Assembly: GCA_030529305.1 (NCBI GenBank)
Contig: JAUMXD010000032.1
Coordinates: 1 to 15,067, forward strand
DNA from: Allobrachymonas sp.
GTDB taxonomy: Bacteria; Pseudomonadota; Gammaproteobacteria; Burkholderiales; Burkholderiaceae
Reading direction: 5' to 3'
DNA: 15,067 bases
The position numbers and the translations under genes are program-made. Below, in pieces: positions 761-12,707 of this stretch. Positions within the stretch are counted from its first letter, which is position 1, and each line of letters starts with the position of its first letter. Under the pieces are notes generated by a model. That model was not told the DNA's origin. It saw nothing but the letters and a program-made list of their open reading frames with translations, and did not search any database.

Positions 761-774
761 ATGCAACGGCCCTT

Positions 775-888
775 TCAGCTAATTACTGGCATCGAAGCGG
801 CGAAATCACCTGCGCGCACTACGCGATCCAAGCGGTCTAGTGAGGCCGTGTTTTCGCCACAGTTCGCAATTAAGATTTTTTTAAACAT
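775..888 (-). pseudogene. Decayed second copy of the pccA 5' end; a 37-codon ORF
   Basis: The ORF reads MFKKILIANCGEN before diverging, against [13 protein letters not shown] in the real pccA. That is 10 of 13 residues and 30 of 39 bases identical. After codon 13 the similarity ends, and the frame continues without homology to a TGA at 777-775. The copied bases are AT-rich (TTTAAAAAAATCTTAATT), like the DUF6615 gene before it and unlike the GC-rich real pccA. This suggests it arrived with that gene from another organism's pccA. Its ATG overlaps the DUF6615 stop (ATGTTTAA, 8 bases shared), and it ends 14 bases before the pccA ATG. It could therefore still be translated and couple DUF6615 to pccA translation. 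A conserved protein product is unlikely. Confidence 0.7.
791..858. repeat. Inverted copies of pccA codons 11-17, with potential for alternative hairpins
   Basis: Plus-strand GGCGAAATCACCTGC (799-813) matches 14 of 15 bases of pccA codons 11-15, which lie on the minus strand at 716-730. The match continues past one extra base into CGCA. It also forms an imperfect inverted repeat with the decayed pccA copy: GGCGAAATCAC at 799-809 against GTGTTTTCGCC at 848-858, 10 of 11 paired. Nested CACTA/TAGTG arms lie at 817-821 and 838-842. In minus-strand RNA, segment 813-799 could pair with 858-848 or with 730-716, but not with both. The second pairing is 15 continuous pairs including one G-U, plus about 5 more after a bulged C, and it loops out the pccA ribosome binding site and start codon. 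The pairings are visible in the sequence; any regulatory role is inference. Confidence 0.6.
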
Positions 889-1687
889 TTCTATCACCCT
901 CCATGCGGAGATCAAAAATCATCAAACGCTTGTACTCTTCAGACTCAAGCTCAAACCATTTTGGCTTAGCACTTGAACTGGCAATCTGGATAATTTTATC
1001 TGGAACATTTTCAATATTAATAAAACATCTATAAAACTCATCCAAAATCATACCTACCAAATCAGAATCAACCCCTTGAAACCTAAAATTATCAAAACAT
1101 CCAAAAATTTTAGGGCAACAAAACAGAGATGACAGAGGAAACAACGGAACAGGAAAATTTTTAATACTTACACCCGATCGATAATACGTTGGAAAAAAAT
1201 AATTGTACAGCGCATTAGCAGAAGCTAAGTAAGCACCGCCTCTATCGATTCCTTTGCATACAGTATTCGGAGGAGAGTCATCGGTGTAAAACACATATAA
1301 AGGCAAAGCTGGAATATTAGGGTATAACCTCGGAGAAACGGAATCATTAATTAGCATCATCATCTGATACCCGTTTGTTCCACGCTTTCTCATTTCTCTA
1401 TTAATATTTTTTTGGGAGAGTTTCTTGGCTTGAATACGTAACCTTATTGCCCTAGAGGGGTACAAAATCCACCACTCCCAATCAGCACCAGTCAATTTAC
1501 CCTCAACATAGCGCGTAAAAGGAATATTTATGATGCGACTACTCGATTTTGATAACTCATACAAAAGCCAGTCTGTAATAGACTCCTCCTTCACCCGGTC
1601 ACATGACCCCATCCATTCTTTTATATAACCGCACTTTAACTGAGCTATCTTGCATATAGATCTAGGCATAAATATCAAGCTCCGCAT
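881..1687 (-). CDS. DUF6615 family protein, AT-rich gene inserted between pccB and pccA
   Basis: The product is 268 residues. I recognise the family from EESITDWLLYEL (34-45), GADWEWW (67-73), RIQAKKL (84-90) and PLYVFYT (129-135), by memory and not by search. Its function is not known. An acidic residue in EESITD, Asp69 and Gln86-x-Lys88 resemble a PD-(D/E)XK nuclease core with the QxK variant, so a nuclease or nucleic-acid role is possible but unproven. There is no signal peptide or clear membrane segment. The first ATG (1687-1685) overlaps the pccB stop as TAATG, which suggests translational coupling. An in-frame ATG at 1669-1667 (residue 7) has GGAG 10 bases upstream and may be the true start, giving 262 residues. 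Base composition is foreign: 19 of 60 G+C at 1141-1200, against 42 of 60 inside pccB at 2221-2280. It does not look like a propionate enzyme and was probably acquired horizontally. Confidence 0.75.
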   Translation of the reverse strand: MRSLIFMPRSICKIAQLKCGYIKEWMGSCDRVKEESITDWLLYELSKSSSRIINIPFTRYVEGKLTGADWEWWILYPSRAIRLRIQAKKLSQKNINREMRKRGTNGYQMMMLINDSVSPRLYPNIPALPLYVFYTDDSPPNTVCKGIDRGGAYLASANALYNYFFPTYYRSGVSIKNFPVPLFPLSSLFCCPKIFGCFDNFRFQGVDSDLVGMILDEFYRCFINIENVPDKIIQIASSSAKPKWFELESEEYKRLMIFDLRMEGDRNV

Positions 1688-3219
1688 TACAGTGGAATAT
1701 TGCCGTGCTTGCGCCAGGGGTTTTCCAGCTTCTTGTCTTTCAACATCGCCAAGCTGCGGCAGATGCGCTTGCGGGTTTCGTGCGGCTGAATCACGTCGTC
1801 GATAAAGCCGCGTGCGCCCGCCACAAAGGGGTTGGCAAAGCGTTCCTTGTATTCCGCCTCGCGCGCAGCGAGTTTTTCGGGGTTGTCTTTGTCCTGGCGG
1901 AAGATGATTTCCACCGCGCCCTTGGCGCCCATCACGGCAATTTCGGCATTGGGCCAAGCCAGGTTCACGTCGCCACGCAGGTGTTTGGAAGCCATCACGT
2001 CATACGCGCCGCCGTAAGCCTTGCGGGTGATGACGGTGATTTTGGGCACCGTGCATTCGGCATAGGCGTAGAGCAACTTCGCACCGTGCTTGATGATGCC
2101 GCCGTATTCCTGCGCCGTGCCGGGCATGAAGCCGGGCACGTCCACAAAGGTGATGACGGGGATGTTGAAGGCATCGCAAAAGCGCACGAAGCGCGCGGCC
2201 TTGATGCTGCTTTTGATGTCCAGGCAGCCCGCCAGCACCAGCGGCTGGTTGGCGACGATGCCCACCACGTTGCCGTCCATGCGCGCAAAGCCGATGACGA
2301 TGTTGGCGGCGTAGTCGGGCTGCAGTTCGAAGAACTCGGCATCGTCCACCGTTTTGACGATGAGTTCTTTCATGTCGTACGGCTTGTTGGGGTTGGCAGG
2401 CACGAGCGTATCCAGACTCATGTCGGCGCGGGTGGCCGGGTCTTGCGTGGGGCGATACGGTGCTTTTTCGCGGTTGTTGGCCGGGATGTAGTTGAACAGG
2501 CGGCGCAGCATCAGCAGGGCTTCCACATCGTTCTCGAAAGCCAAGTCGGCCACGCCGCTCTTGGTGGAGTGGGTGATGGCGCCGCCCAGCTCTTGCGCCG
2601 TCACAGTTTCGTGCGTCACGGTCTTGACCACTTCTGGGCCGGTGACGAACATGTAAGAGCTGTCTTTGACCATGAAGATGAAATCGGTCATGGCTGGTGA
2701 ATACACCGCGCCGCCCGCGCAGGGCCCCATGATCATGCTGATTTGCGGAATCACGCCGCTGGCCATGACGTTGCGCTGGAACACTTCGGCATAGCCTGCG
2801 AGAGAGGCCACCCCTTCCTGAATGCGCGCGCCGCCCGAATCGTTCAAGCCGATCACGGGCGCACCGGCTTTCATGGCCTGATCCATGAGCTTGCAGATTT
2901 TTTCGGCATGCGCTTCAGACAAGGCCCCGCCAAACACGGTGAAATCCTGGCTGAAGACGAAGACCAGCCGCCCGTTGATGGTGCCGTAGCCGGTCACTAC
3001 GCCGTCGCCGGGAATGTGCTTGTCGGCCATGCCGAAATCGGTGCAGCGGTGCTCAACGAACATGTCCCACTCTTCAAAGCTGCCACCATCGAGCAAGATG
3101 TCGATGCGTTCGCGGGCTGTGAGGCGGCCCTTGGCGTGCTGCGCGTCGATGCGCTTTTGGCCACCGCCCAGGCGGGCAGCGGCGCGTTTCTGTTCGAGTT
3201 GTTCAATGATGTGCTTCAT
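1687..3219 (-). CDS. pccB: Propionyl-CoA carboxylase carboxyltransferase (beta) subunit
   Basis: The 510-residue product is the usual full length for PccB/AccD5-type carboxyltransferases. It transfers the carboxyl group from carboxybiotin on PccA to propionyl-CoA, giving methylmalonyl-CoA in the cytoplasm. The N-terminal crotonase-like half carries GGARIQEG at 129-136 and [15 protein letters not shown] at 166-180. The C-terminal half carries [21 protein letters not shown] (about 359-379) and AYGGAYDVM at 401-409. The Asp in GGAYDVM (407) is at the position known in actinobacterial homologues to influence acyl-CoA choice. The start ATG (3219-3217) has only a weak GAAAGA upstream. The stop codon shares a base with the first ATG of the DUF6615 gene. 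No frameshift or missing motif was seen. Confidence 0.96.
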
Positions 3220-3239
3220 GGTCTTTCAGGTCGGTGAAT

Positions 3240-3256
3240 GCATGCGCAAAGCATGC
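3240..3256. repeat. Small GCATGC hairpin between meaB and pccB
   Basis: Arms GCATGC at 3240-3245 and 3251-3256 enclose a 5-base loop, about 20 bases before the pccB start. There is no T-tract, so it is not a terminator. It could be an mRNA-processing or folding element in the 73-base gap, or chance. Confidence 0.35.
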
Positions 3257-3292
3257 GGGGGTTGGTAGATGGCGTGAATCGATGGCGGCCAA

Positions 3293-4426
3293 TCAAAGGG
3301 CTGGGGGTGCTTTCTGACTGGCTGGTTGGGACACTTGCGAGGCAGAGGCCGCCGCTTGCGCGCAAGCCGCTGCAGGAGCGGCAGCGGTAGCAGCGGCCTG
3401 CACCGCCGCCCCATCGCCCATGCCAAAACGCTGCAGCAATTGGCGTGCGGCAGTGGAGGCCGCCAGCTGCCCCTGCTGCACCCGGCTTTGCAAATCGGGC
3501 AGCAGCTGGCGCACCTGCGCGTGCGAGCGAAAGGCCTGGCGCAGGCCCGCATCAATGCGTTCCCACATCCAGGCCAGTGACTGTTGCTGGCGGCGCGCGG
3601 CCAGGCGGCCATTGGCCTGCTGCATCTGCCGGTACTGGCACACGGCCTGCCAGAAAGCATCCAGCCCCTCGCCCTTCAAACCGCTGATTTGCAGCACCTG
3701 CGGCTGCCAAACCGTTTCTTCGTGCGCGTTGCGGTGCGGGTTGCCGTGCATGCCGAGCAGGCGCAGGGCCGAATGGATTTGCGCGCGCGCGCGCGCCGCA
3801 GCCGCCGTATCCAGATCGGCCTTGTTGATCACAACCAGGTCGGCCAGTTCCATCACGCCTTTTTTGATGGCCTGCAAATCATCGCCCGCGTTGGGCAATT
3901 GCAGCAGAACGAACAAATCGGCCATGCCGTGCACGGCGGTTTCGCTCTGGCCCACGCCCACGGTTTCAATCAGCACCACGTCGTAACCGGCGGCCTCGCA
4001 AATCAGCATGGCCTCGCGCGTTTTGTCGGCCACGCCGCCCAGCGCGCCGCCGCTGGGCGTGGGACGGATGTAGGCGGCTTCTTCGGTGGACAAACGCTCC
4101 ATGCGCGTTTTGTCGCCCAGGATGGAGCCGCCCGATACGGTGGAGGATGGATCGACCGCCAGCACCGCCACGCGGTGGCCCTGGCCAATCAGATACAGGC
4201 CCAGCGATTCGATGAAAGTGCTTTTGCCCACGCCCGGCACGCCGCTGATGCCGATGCGCAGCGACTGCCCCGTGTGCGGTAACAAGGCAGTGAGCAATTC
4301 GTCGCCCTGTGCGCGGTGGTCGGCCCGGGTGGATTCAAGCAAGGTGATGGCCTTGGCCATGGCGCGGCGCTTGCGCACGGTGTTGCCGTGCACGATGTCG
4401 TGCTGCAGATCCATCGCTTCAGCCAT
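3293..4426 (-). CDS. meaB: Methylmalonyl-CoA mutase-associated GTPase MeaB (ArgK family)
   Basis: This G3E-family P-loop GTPase gates cobalamin loading and protects methylmalonyl-CoA mutase. With the start chosen here it has 377 residues. Walker A GVPGVGKST is at about 62-70, the VDPSS segment at about 92-96, the switch and Mg-binding ETVGVGQ at 154-160, and the base-specificity NKAD at 201-204. The reading frame extends 7 codons further, to an ATG at 4447. I place the start at 4426-4424 because AAGGAG sits 6 bases before that ATG and the protein then begins MAEAMDLQ. The last 35-40 residues form an Ala/Gln/Ser-rich tail beyond the normal C-terminal helical arm, probably disordered. It lies 125 bases after scpA and 73 bases before pccB, in the same operon. 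Confidence 0.95.
   Translation of the reverse strand: MAEAMDLQHDIVHGNTVRKRRAMAKAITLLESTRADHRAQGDELLTALLPHTGQSLRIGISGVPGVGKSTFIESLGLYLIGQGHRVAVLAVDPSSTVSGGSILGDKTRMERLSTEEAAYIRPTPSGGALGGVADKTREAMLICEAAGYDVVLIETVGVGQSETAVHGMADLFVLLQLPNAGDDLQAIKKGVMELADLVVINKADLDTAAAARARAQIHSALRLLGMHGNPHRNAHEETVWQPQVLQISGLKGEGLDAFWQAVCQYRQMQQANGRLAARRQQQSLAWMWERIDAGLRQAFRSHAQVRQLLPDLQSRVQQGQLAASTAARQLLQRFGMGDGAAVQAAATAAAPAAACAQAAASASQVSQPASQKAPPAL
3781..3794. repeat. (GC)7 dinucleotide run inside meaB
   Basis: Fourteen bases of alternating GC encode an Arg-Ala stretch of MeaB. This is a simple-sequence tract that could slip or adopt Z-DNA. It falls in an ordinary coding frame, so it is probably a by-product of high G+C. 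Confidence 0.5.
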
Positions 4427-4432
4427 GCCGCA

Positions 4433-4438
4433 CTCCTT
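4433..4438 (-). promoter_or_regulatory. Shine-Dalgarno AAGGAG of meaB
   Basis: AAGGAG is followed by the 6-base spacer TGCGGC and the ATG at 4426-4424. This decides the start in favour of that ATG over the in-frame one at 4447. Confidence 0.8.
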
Positions 4439-4480
4439 GCGCAGCAAATGGCTGCAAGCCGCACGCTTGAACAGAGACTG

Positions 4481-4502
4481 GTTTCATCGCCACTGTTTCA
4501 TC
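4481..4502. repeat. Short direct repeat GTTTCATC x2 in the scpA-meaB gap
   Basis: GTTTCATC occurs at 4481-4488 and 4495-4502, 14 bases apart, in the 125-base gap between scpA and meaB. The gap holds no gene and no hairpin with a T-tract. Significance unknown. Confidence 0.3.
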
Positions 4503-4551
4503 ACCGCTTACGAAACGAACCGAGCCGAAAGCACAGCTTGGCATGCGCCGA

Positions 4552-6732
<2,181 letters not shown>

Positions 6733-10664: not shown

Positions 10665-12707
10665 ATGGCCATTCCGCACGGATTTATTCAAGAGTTGCTC
10701 ACCCGCGTCGATGTGGTTGACGTGGTGGGCCGCTACGTGCAGCTGAAAAAAGCCGGGGCCAATATGCAGGGCCTGTGCCCGTTTCATGGCGAAAAAACGC
10801 CCTCTTTTACTGTGAGCCCCAGCAAGCAGTTCTACCACTGCTTTGGCTGCGGCAAAAGCGGCGATGCCATCAATTTCTTGATGGAGCACAACGGCATGAG
10901 CTTTGTGGACGCCGTGCAGGAACTGGCCCAGCAATGCGGCCTGCAAGTGCCCGACGACCACGCCAGCCCGCAAGAGCGCGCCCGCGCCGAAGCGCGCCGC
11001 CAGCAGCAAGCCACCCTGGCCGATGTACAGGAAAAAGCCGCTGCCAGCTACAAAAAGCAGCTCAAGGCCAGCCCGCGCGCCATTGATTACCTGAAGCAGC
11101 GCGGCCTGAGCGGCGAAATTGCCGCCCGCTACGGCCTGGGCTATGCCCCGCCCGGCTGGCGCCACCTGAGCACGGTGTTTGCCGACTACACCGACCCACT
11201 GCTGGAAGAAAGCGGCCTAGTGATTCACCACGGCGAAGACGCCGCCAACCGGCCAGAAAGACAACAAGGGCAGCCAGGCCAGGAAGACAAGCGTTACGAC
11301 CGCTTTCGCGACCGCATCATGTTCCCGATCCGCAACGTCAAAGGCGTATGCATCGGCTTTGGCGGGCGCGTGCTGGGCGACGAAAAGCCCAAATACCTCA
11401 ACTCGCCCGAAACGCCCCTGTTCAGCAAAGGGCACGAGCTGTACGGCCTGTTCGAGGCGCGCACCGCCATGCGCCAGCACGGCTTTGCGCTCGTCACCGA
11501 AGGCTATATGGACGTGGTGGCTCTGGCACAAATGGATTTTGGCAACGCCGTGGCCACCTTGGGCACGGCCTGCACGCCCGAGCACGTGCGCAAGCTGTTT
11601 CGCTTCACCGATCACGTTGTCTTCAGCTTCGATGGCGATGCCGCCGGCCGCCGCGCCGCACGCAAGGCGCTGGATGCCGCCCTGCCCCATGCCACGGATA
11701 CGCGCAGCGTGAAGTTTTTGTTTTTGCCGCCCGAGCACGACCCCGACAGCTACATCCGCAGCTACGGCAAAGAGGCCTTTGCCGAGCAAATCCAGCAGGC
11801 CCTGCCATTGAGCCGCTTTGTGATCGAAGCCGCACAAGAAGGCTGCGACCCCAGCAGCACCGAGGGCCGTGCCCGCATGGCCAGCCTGGCCGCACCCATG
11901 TGGCAAGCCCTGCCCGATGGCATTTTCAAGCGGCAGCTTTTAGGTGAACTGGCCCAGCTGATTCACCTTTCGGCCGACGAGCTGCAAACCATGTGGGGCG
12001 GCCGCAGTGCCGCGCCTGCATCCCACAACACCCCGCCCGCCCAAGGCCGCCACCAGGGCCAGCCCAGCCACGACCCCGGCTGGCCCGATGGCTACGAAGC
12101 GCCTGCACCCTATGCCCAAGGCTTCGCGCCTGAGTTTGCCGGTCAGCAACGCCAATCGTGGTCATCACGGCCTTCATCGTCTGGCAGCATGCGCTTACGC
12201 GGGGCGAGCAAACACGGCGGCCACGCTGGCAACTGGCAACGCCCCCCCGAGCGCAGCAGCCGCATCAGCCTGCACACCCATGCCGACCACGTGCTGCGCT
12301 ATTTGCTAAGCGACACGCAGGCCTGGGATTGGCTCTCGCCCGCCGCGCACGAGGTGCTGCTGCACCAGCCCGCACCGCACGGGGCTTTCTTCGCCTGGAT
12401 CGAAAGCCAATACCTGCAACACGGCCCCCAGCCGTGGAGCGCCCTGCGCATTGCCTTGCAACAGCCCGATTGCGCCGATTTGCAGGCGCTGGCCGAACGC
12501 CTGATGCATTCCGACCACCGGCTGGTGGAGCCCGACCAGGGCGAATTTCTGCAGAACGTGCAGGCCCTGCATCTGCAAGAGCTGAAGCAGCAGCAGGCCA
12601 TGGCCTATGCCCAGCGCGATGTGGCACTGGCCGCCCAGCTGGGTGAGCAAATCCTGCAATTGCAGCAGGCGCAGCGAGCCGCTGGCCGCCAGAACGAGCC
12701 AAGCTAG
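10665..12707 (+). CDS. dnaG: DNA primase
   Basis: The 680-residue protein makes RNA primers for replication at the fork with DnaB helicase. The N-terminal CHC2 zinc domain has Cys38, His41, Cys59 and Cys62 (CPFHGEKTPSF, FYHCFGCGKSGD). The RNA polymerase domain has RFRDRIMFPI at 213-222. The Toprim fold has EGYMD at 279-283 and the metal-binding FDGDAAG at 322-328, with DPDSYI at 359-364. A Gly/Pro/Ser/Gln-rich linker (about 445-535) leads to the helical helicase-binding C-terminal domain. It is longer than E. coli DnaG, mainly in that linker and in a short Gln/Gly insertion near 195-208. The start matches the family (MAIPHGFIQELLTRVDVVDVV), although no good Shine-Dalgarno precedes it. The usual neighbours rpsU and rpoD are absent; hisC follows instead. 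Confidence 0.97.
   Translation: MAIPHGFIQELLTRVDVVDVVGRYVQLKKAGANMQGLCPFHGEKTPSFTVSPSKQFYHCFGCGKSGDAINFLMEHNGMSFVDAVQELAQQCGLQVPDDHASPQERARAEARRQQQATLADVQEKAAASYKKQLKASPRAIDYLKQRGLSGEIAARYGLGYAPPGWRHLSTVFADYTDPLLEESGLVIHHGEDAANRPERQQGQPGQEDKRYDRFRDRIMFPIRNVKGVCIGFGGRVLGDEKPKYLNSPETPLFSKGHELYGLFEARTAMRQHGFALVTEGYMDVVALAQMDFGNAVATLGTACTPEHVRKLFRFTDHVVFSFDGDAAGRRAARKALDAALPHATDTRSVKFLFLPPEHDPDSYIRSYGKEAFAEQIQQALPLSRFVIEAAQEGCDPSSTEGRARMASLAAPMWQALPDGIFKRQLLGELAQLIHLSADELQTMWGGRSAAPASHNTPPAQGRHQGQPSHDPGWPDGYEAPAPYAQGFAPEFAGQQRQSWSSRPSSSGSMRLRGASKHGGHAGNWQRPPERSSRISLHTHADHVLRYLLSDTQAWDWLSPAAHEVLLHQPAPHGAFFAWIESQYLQHGPQPWSALRIALQQPDCADLQALAERLMHSDHRLVEPDQGEFLQNVQALHLQELKQQQAMAYAQRDVALAAQLGEQILQLQQAQRAAGRQNEPS

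Follow-up and report, generated by a model that had tools for sequence, protein, structure and literature searches.

The window analysed here is the whole of one contig of Allobrachymonas sp. (JAUMXD010000032.1, 15,067 bases). Its minus strand carries, in this order, mcm, meaB, pccB, a gene of the uncharacterized family DUF6615 and pccA, which is truncated at the contig end. The first-pass annotation had described an AT-rich DUF6615 gene between pccB and pccA, and this gene is real. The G+C content of its frame (881-1687) was 0.377, that is 37.7% against about 60% on both sides (0.604 for pccB, 1688-3219, and 0.594 on the pccA side, 1-762). The shift in G+C had been placed at the gene ends. 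The drop itself was confirmed, but it did not match both ends, as the low-G+C block extends past the gene by about 120 base pairs (bp) downstream. The interval 775-880, assigned at that time to the DUF6615 feature, holds instead a degenerate copy of a biotin-carboxylase gene start and a hairpin part. The features are collected in Table 1.

Table 1. Features at the pccB-pccA junction of the window.
Feature	Position	Strand	Basis
pccB, carboxyltransferase subunit	1687..3219	-	PF01039, 690 bits
GGAG, probable Shine-Dalgarno site of the DUF6615 gene	1680..1683	-	Sequence; 10 nucleotides ahead of ATG 1669
DUF6615 gene, probable coding sequence, 262 amino acids	881..1669	-	PF20320; start at M7 by P0001, P0002 and alignment A1
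Degenerate copy of the first 11 codons of a biotin-carboxylase gene (ATGTTTAAAAAAATC...)	856..888	-	75.8% identical to the window's pccA start
Leader open frame, 37 codons, ending 14 nucleotides ahead of the pccA ATG	775..888	-	
Hairpin part of the leader unit, degenerate	761..855	-	Model R1 match 858-787, 22.6 bits, E 0.0024
pccA, biotin carboxylase subunit, cut by the contig end	1..760	-	PF00289 and PF02786; ATG at 760

The DUF6615 open frame comprises 268 codons on the minus strand (881-1687), with its first ATG at 1687-1685 and its stop at 883-881. The protein scored 49.9 bits against PF20320, for which the Pfam gathering cut-off is 23.8. The A of the first ATG is the final base of the pccB stop codon (TAATG), on which the gene had been thought to start. 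This start was not upheld. The closest homologue, P0002 (264 amino acids, 74% identical), begins with MPRSIC, corresponding to residue 7 of the frame in the window. Most of 30 aligned DUF6615 sequences start near the same residue, and the window's own protein record, P0001, has 262 amino acids, counted from residue 7. TAATG is probably not the start in use, and the real start is probably the ATG at 1669-1667. From the start of P0002, the homologue starts and the spacing of the GGAG motif, a product of 262 amino acids with its own ribosome-binding site is expected.

Alignment A1 contained the DUF6615 protein of the window and 29 homologues out of 130 matches. E34, E35, D69, Q86 and K88 were invariant in all 30 sequences, within the consensus motifs KEESxTDWLL, TGADWEW and QAKK. 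The PD-(D/E)XK motif is defined by a glutamate in the first helix, an aspartate at strand 2 and (D/E/Q)xK on strand 3. The structure predicted for DUF6615 was fairly confident (predicted local distance difference test, pLDDT, 83.5; predicted template modelling score, pTM, 0.84), with a helix at 34-48, a strand at 70-75 right after D69 and a further strand at 79-89. The conserved residues thus lie where the motif has them, with E in the first helix, D at strand 2 and QxK on strand 3, in the same order as in RecU, Hjc, EcoRV and the homing enzyme I-Ssp6803I. Unlike these nucleases DUF6615 has Q in place of D/E in the third motif; Q in this position also occurs in Mrr-like enzymes. Most rows returned by VIA-align for the model were what we take to be PD-(D/E)XK nucleases, including RecU (7.0), Hjc (6.8), SwaI (4.8), I-Ssp6803I (4.7) and EcoRV (3.3). 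The conserved EE, D69 and QxK suggest a PD-(D/E)XK nuclease, the motif being the stronger argument and the structure comparison supportive. A role in defence or DNA metabolism had been proposed at first. The nuclease-like motif backs a function acting on DNA; the defence part found no such backing, as no model of the 2023 PADLOC library matched the protein (0 families up to E 1). PF20320 was not named in the papers of the literature library searched.

The surroundings of DUF6615 homologues were examined as well. Over cut-off, the family was found in 2 of 399 genomes of the bacterial family, neither copy being near a biotin carboxylase within about 1.5 kb on each side, and it was not found in the six same-genus genomes among them. 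The search of GTDB genomes yielded 42 loci spread over many phyla; one further locus came from viral contigs, and seven plasmid records matched. A phage gene was considered and rejected, given this single viral contig and no match in the phage collection. An integron cassette, weighed by eye, was set aside as well. At 31 of the 42 loci the upstream neighbour was on the same strand, at 13 of them within 30 nucleotides, by mechanical calls of open reading frames (ORFs). None of the 42 genome loci had a biotin-carboxylase start motif among its called ORFs. Membership of a fixed defence system was likewise rejected: among 98 neighbour ORFs scanned (of 127 listed, from 40 loci) no family occurred in more than 4, the counts being Fic 4, Recombinase 2, AAA_13 2 and BrxL 1. 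Elsewhere, then, DUF6615 lies beside unrelated genes and has no recurring partner. By eye, the DUF6615 gene at L195 overlaps by a few bases a gene resembling a restriction specificity subunit, and that at L192 a gene resembling a methylase; these overlaps are a hint of a restriction role.

For the comparison of the junction, pccB was searched in 60 relatives and the 399 family genomes, and 330 of the latter had pccB at E 1e-200 or below. Junctions were taken from 150 genomes within the best-scoring part of these matches, 148 from the same family and two from the same order (L023, L027). Three loci were swapped for longer pieces, two gaps running past 1.5 kb were counted as longer than 200 nucleotides, and L109, at a contig edge, was left out. 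The pccB-pccA gap in the 149 remaining relatives was at most 60 nucleotides in 72, 61-200 in 24 and more than 200 in 53. The statement that the two genes are normally adjacent is therefore true of about half of the relatives. As a control, 54 loci also showing meaB (window included) were used. A gap of more than 200 nucleotides was found in 8 cases between meaB and pccB and in 25 between pccB and pccA (Fisher p 0.0007, with related genomes not independent). Seven loci (L010, L036, L039, L041, L044, L046 and L048) had a meaB-pccB distance of 787-858 nucleotides, probably due to another inserted gene.

The gaps of more than 200 nucleotides yielded 63 mechanically called ORFs of at least 60 amino acids, spurious ones included, which formed 39 clusters. 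None of the ORFs called at the relatives' junctions, where the gaps vary and contain varied genes, was a DUF6615 gene. Nuclease-like genes at the junction, listed here without a claim of enrichment, were DUF6615 in the window, a GIY-YIG-like gene (L001; 20.1 bits, under the cut-off of 22.6), HNH genes over cut-off (L096, L155) and an HNH-like gene recognized by eye (L057). Most insert clusters were not nuclease-like. Among the other ORFs scanned, one NYN domain was over cut-off, and DUF6630 and TIGR00271 gave one match each below cut-off. As the junction admits many genes, the setting of DUF6615 is less exceptional than it first seemed. At L096 (the junction of genome G689) two inserted genes flank a 5' fragment of pccA that continues in frame into the C-terminal pccB motif KKLENPWRK, an arrangement probably left behind by a tandem duplication. 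At L057 (genome G035) the HNH-like gene is followed by a long duplicate of the pccA 5' end and an opposite-strand gene that is MazF-like by eye.

Between 6467 and 1868 (4.6 kb), every 100-base step of the window was 100% identical to G001, the nearest genome of the comparison. Identity then dropped, with 97% and 88% over the last part of pccB. In place of DUF6615, the junction of G001 carries an unrelated GIY-YIG-like insert, a gene for which G001 was the single carrier among 200 family genomes. The alignment resumed at the pccA start with 93.3% identity over 765 bases. Compared with eight other members of the genus, the final 87 coding bases of pccB were 79-87% identical in G001 and 83-91% in the window, so that G001 is the more unusual of the two at the pccB end. 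Over the contig, blocks of 100% identity (1868-6467 and about 10768-12330) alternate with blocks that are 61-93% identical or unaligned. This mosaic suggests recent recombination between lineages or a mixed assembly.

Between DUF6615 and pccA lies a 128-bp unit (761-888), directly ahead of the pccA ATG. In its complete form, as found in other genomes, the unit consists of a copy of the first 11 codons of the gene that follows, a hairpin and a ribosome-binding site, and a short leader frame within it ends at the true start. The copy in the window, MFKKILIANCGE, is degenerate and is followed by 95 bp up to the pccA ATG. With 10 G+C in 33 bases, the start copy is A+T-rich like DUF6615. The DUF6615 stop falls within ATGTTTAA (888-881), the opening of the start copy, at its +8 position; 25 of 41 leader frames stop at this same position of a true start. 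The match of the hairpin part to covariance model R1 was the best in the window; the next (17.7 bits) was on the other strand, over the pccA start. No Rfam match was found in the window at the gathering threshold. The unit was not found in same-genus genomes (0 of 6 by pattern, 0 of 3 by model R1).

A motif scan of the 76 junctions longer than 60 nucleotides, that of the window among them, flagged 18; of 1520 shuffled gaps it flagged 20. Four of the flagged junctions were left out, L038 and L078 as weak and L057 and L096 for longer duplications elsewhere in the gap. The unit was thus present directly before pccA in 13 of the 149 relatives and in the window. A pattern that requires two biotin-carboxylase starts at a distance of 108-138 bases, and is restricted to these starts by construction, was found in 56 of the 399 family genomes and 41 of 141 genera, with 75 places listed. 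The reversed control pattern gave no match in the 399 genomes. Sites that were read lie before pccA, before accC (after accB) and before other biotin-carboxylase genes, the genes being named by eye from motifs. Two or three units in tandem were found in G618, G727, G485, G024, G443 and G716. At L215 (G618:C10:12484-12726) the stretch between accB and accC holds two identical tandem units of about 108 bp, and the pattern listing gives three tandem units of about 108 bp at G727:C1:2189793-2190146; at both places each unit has a gene-start copy.

Altogether 41 distinct units were extracted, including that of the window. The upstream copy was 88.3% identical to the start of its own gene and 81.2% to the starts of other genes, a result reached in none of 5000 permutations; the window's copy, compared in Table 1, is an exception to this likeness. 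The 15 nucleotides upstream of the duplicated ATG were 34% alike on average, with two units exceeding 75%. Since these nucleotides are little alike, the duplication starts at the ATG in most units; it ends at about codon 11. All 41 leader frames terminate between 15 nucleotides before and 8 nucleotides after the gene ATG. In 25 the frame is still open at the gene ATG. These 25 all reach a stop at +8, within TGTTT(A/G)A, since the second codon of their genes is TTT rather than TTC. TTT was the second codon in 6 of the 16 cases where the leader stops earlier and in 12 of the 41 upstream copies. Cases were grouped by whether the leader frame was open at the ATG, since the +8 stop itself requires T at this place, and the association with TTT gave a Fisher p of 7e-6, uncorrected for kinship. 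Judged from the sequences, a translated, coupled leader would be expected to leave such a pattern.

The hairpin ahead of the Shine-Dalgarno site has 6 consensus pairs, of which 5 were changed on both sides in an alignment of 36 of the 41 units (the window, L039, L069, L134 and L153 were left out). Folding z-scores from mononucleotide shuffles were below -1 in 25 of the 41 units; the value for the window was -0.72. Hiding of the Shine-Dalgarno site by the hairpin was considered, and no clear effect was found: its mean unpaired probability was 0.37 with and 0.44 without the upstream part. Nor was the start codon clearly hidden (0.55 with and 0.54 without).

Covariance model R1, built on the hairpin part, gave 29 matches in 11 of 16 genomes, all 29 before biotin-carboxylase genes. 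Eleven of the 16 genomes had been chosen as unit carriers, some being the source of R1, and 150 candidates were scored per genome, so that rare copies elsewhere may have been missed. Of the matches, 24 coincided with pattern places and one lay directly before such a place at a contig edge. The remaining four were new and likewise preceded biotin-carboxylase genes whose own starts are duplicated. The model did not recover one known unit (G618, pccA). The possibility that the hairpin is a dispersed repeat was rejected: 7 of 11 extra loci lacked a direct repeat around the match and mostly looked, on inspection, like coding sequence or like a biotin-carboxylase start that lacks the unit, and the 4 with a repeat were all at biotin-carboxylase starts. 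In six loci bearing the unit, Rfam gave no match up to E 1. A description of the unit was not found in the literature searched, which omits most subscription papers, and it is apparently undescribed so far. The closest described element found is the beta-proteobacterial repeat element (BRE), which the relevant part of its report gives as about 90 bp, G+C-rich, occurring in tandem copies and reported in Comamonadaceae (PMC3110155). The leader unit resembles it in size, composition and tandem habit. According to the same part, BRE is scattered beside many genes (PMC3110155), whereas the leader unit, in the 16 genomes scored with R1 at 150 candidates each, was found only at biotin-carboxylase starts; the two were compared by the description of BRE and not by its letters. 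A biotin-carboxylase cluster of fs-genes, 128 genes in 44 genera, has been tabled as translationally coupled (PMC3711429). There too an upstream frame runs into the biotin-carboxylase start, but the passage on this cluster mentions no duplicated start or hairpin.

The reading that we favour, by a modest degree, is that DUF6615 is a recently acquired stand-alone nuclease gene, brought as cargo by recombination through the pcc genes together with a leader unit. That the gene is foreign cargo at an operon site, as the first-pass annotation had it, agrees with its rarity in the family, its foreign composition and the other gene at the same place in the nearest genome. DUF6615 and the degenerate leader unit would have reached the junction in a single block of about 0.9 kb, carried in by homologous recombination via the flanking pcc genes of another lineage. 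In that donor, DUF6615 presumably lay directly before a biotin-carboxylase gene, and the joint between the block and the resident pccA may lie close to where the hairpin ends; no donor of the block was found. Arrival as one block is the simplest account because the unit was not found in the same genus, the start copy is A+T-rich and the DUF6615 stop lies at its +8. The junction could tolerate inserts if these are transcribed with the operon, have their own ribosome-binding site and leave the pccA start intact. The protein would most likely have a PD-(D/E)XK fold and may cut DNA as a solitary restriction-like enzyme, of possible benefit to the host. Some observations weigh against this account. 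The best three VIA-align rows were human Rep15 (8.3 to 7.4), and Foldseek gave no match to the model with an E of at most 0.001. Not every nuclease family was listed by the structure search, and absence from its rows carries no weight. In addition, a mixed assembly would give a mosaic similar to that seen against G001.

Such a mixed assembly, in which the window joins reads of different strains and the insert or a flank is an artefact, would account for the block-wise switching of identity to G001 between 100% and 61-93%. The window is a single whole contig, and its DUF6615 gene is known from this contig only. A random join is, however, unlikely to place the DUF6615 stop inside the ATGTTTAA start in the same arrangement as in 25 of 41 leader frames. 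The homologue P0002 has the same last residues, RNV, and would fit this overlap too, as judged from protein and not from DNA. We regard a chimera as quite improbable. Somewhat less remote, though still unlikely, is that DUF6615 is a free-standing homing endonuclease, which would cut pccB-pccA alleles lacking it and be copied in by repair with co-conversion of the flanks. In the parts of the reports describing them, the free-standing homing endonucleases seg and mob of T4 are single nuclease genes between conserved genes, with replacement of the flanks (PMC2988022, PMC10448857). DUF6615 is like these in its position as a single, here putative, nuclease gene between conserved genes and in the flank replacement; its nuclease nature would follow from motif and model. 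It differs in lying on a bacterial chromosome and in having no family-wide site. Homologues of a homing enzyme would share one cognate site, but no biotin-carboxylase start was seen among the ORFs called at the 42 genome loci, nor within about 1.5 kb of the gene in the two family members over cut-off. Because none of the 42 loci shows the motif, biotin-carboxylase starts are no common site for the DUF6615 family. That most junction inserts are not nuclease-like also speaks against homing. Finally, DUF6615 might be an old accessory component of propionyl-CoA carboxylase, given its intact frame in the same operon and on the same strand. Its absence from the ORFs of the relatives' junctions, its foreign composition, its rarity in the family and the unrelated genes beside its homologues elsewhere make this barely conceivable.

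Returning to the acquisition of a nuclease gene together with its leader unit, a bolder reading joins the two. It is possible, but we hold it with less confidence than the acquisition itself. The unit, with its 11-codon start copy, hairpin and Shine-Dalgarno site forming a translated leader, may be an undescribed gene-specific element of biotin-carboxylase genes in this family (accC, pccA, mccA-like and others), among which it moves or expands and from which it can be lost by recombination between the start copies; it would have come to the window with DUF6615. In its boldest form, the conserved start would be the nuclease target, and the duplicated starts and the swapped nuclease genes would be repair products of one homing process.

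The insert is more interesting than first thought, because it encodes a probable nuclease, is swapped for another gene in the nearest genome and adjoins a decayed leader unit. Such a gap in a housekeeping operon is commonly assumed to be fixed; here it is suggested to be an exchange site, where lineages with identical flanking DNA carry different, partly nuclease-like genes. DUF6615 gains a testable function. The leader unit would add gene-specific translation control, or a new type of mobile element, at the biotin-carboxylase enzymes, which commit carbon to fatty acid and propionate metabolism.
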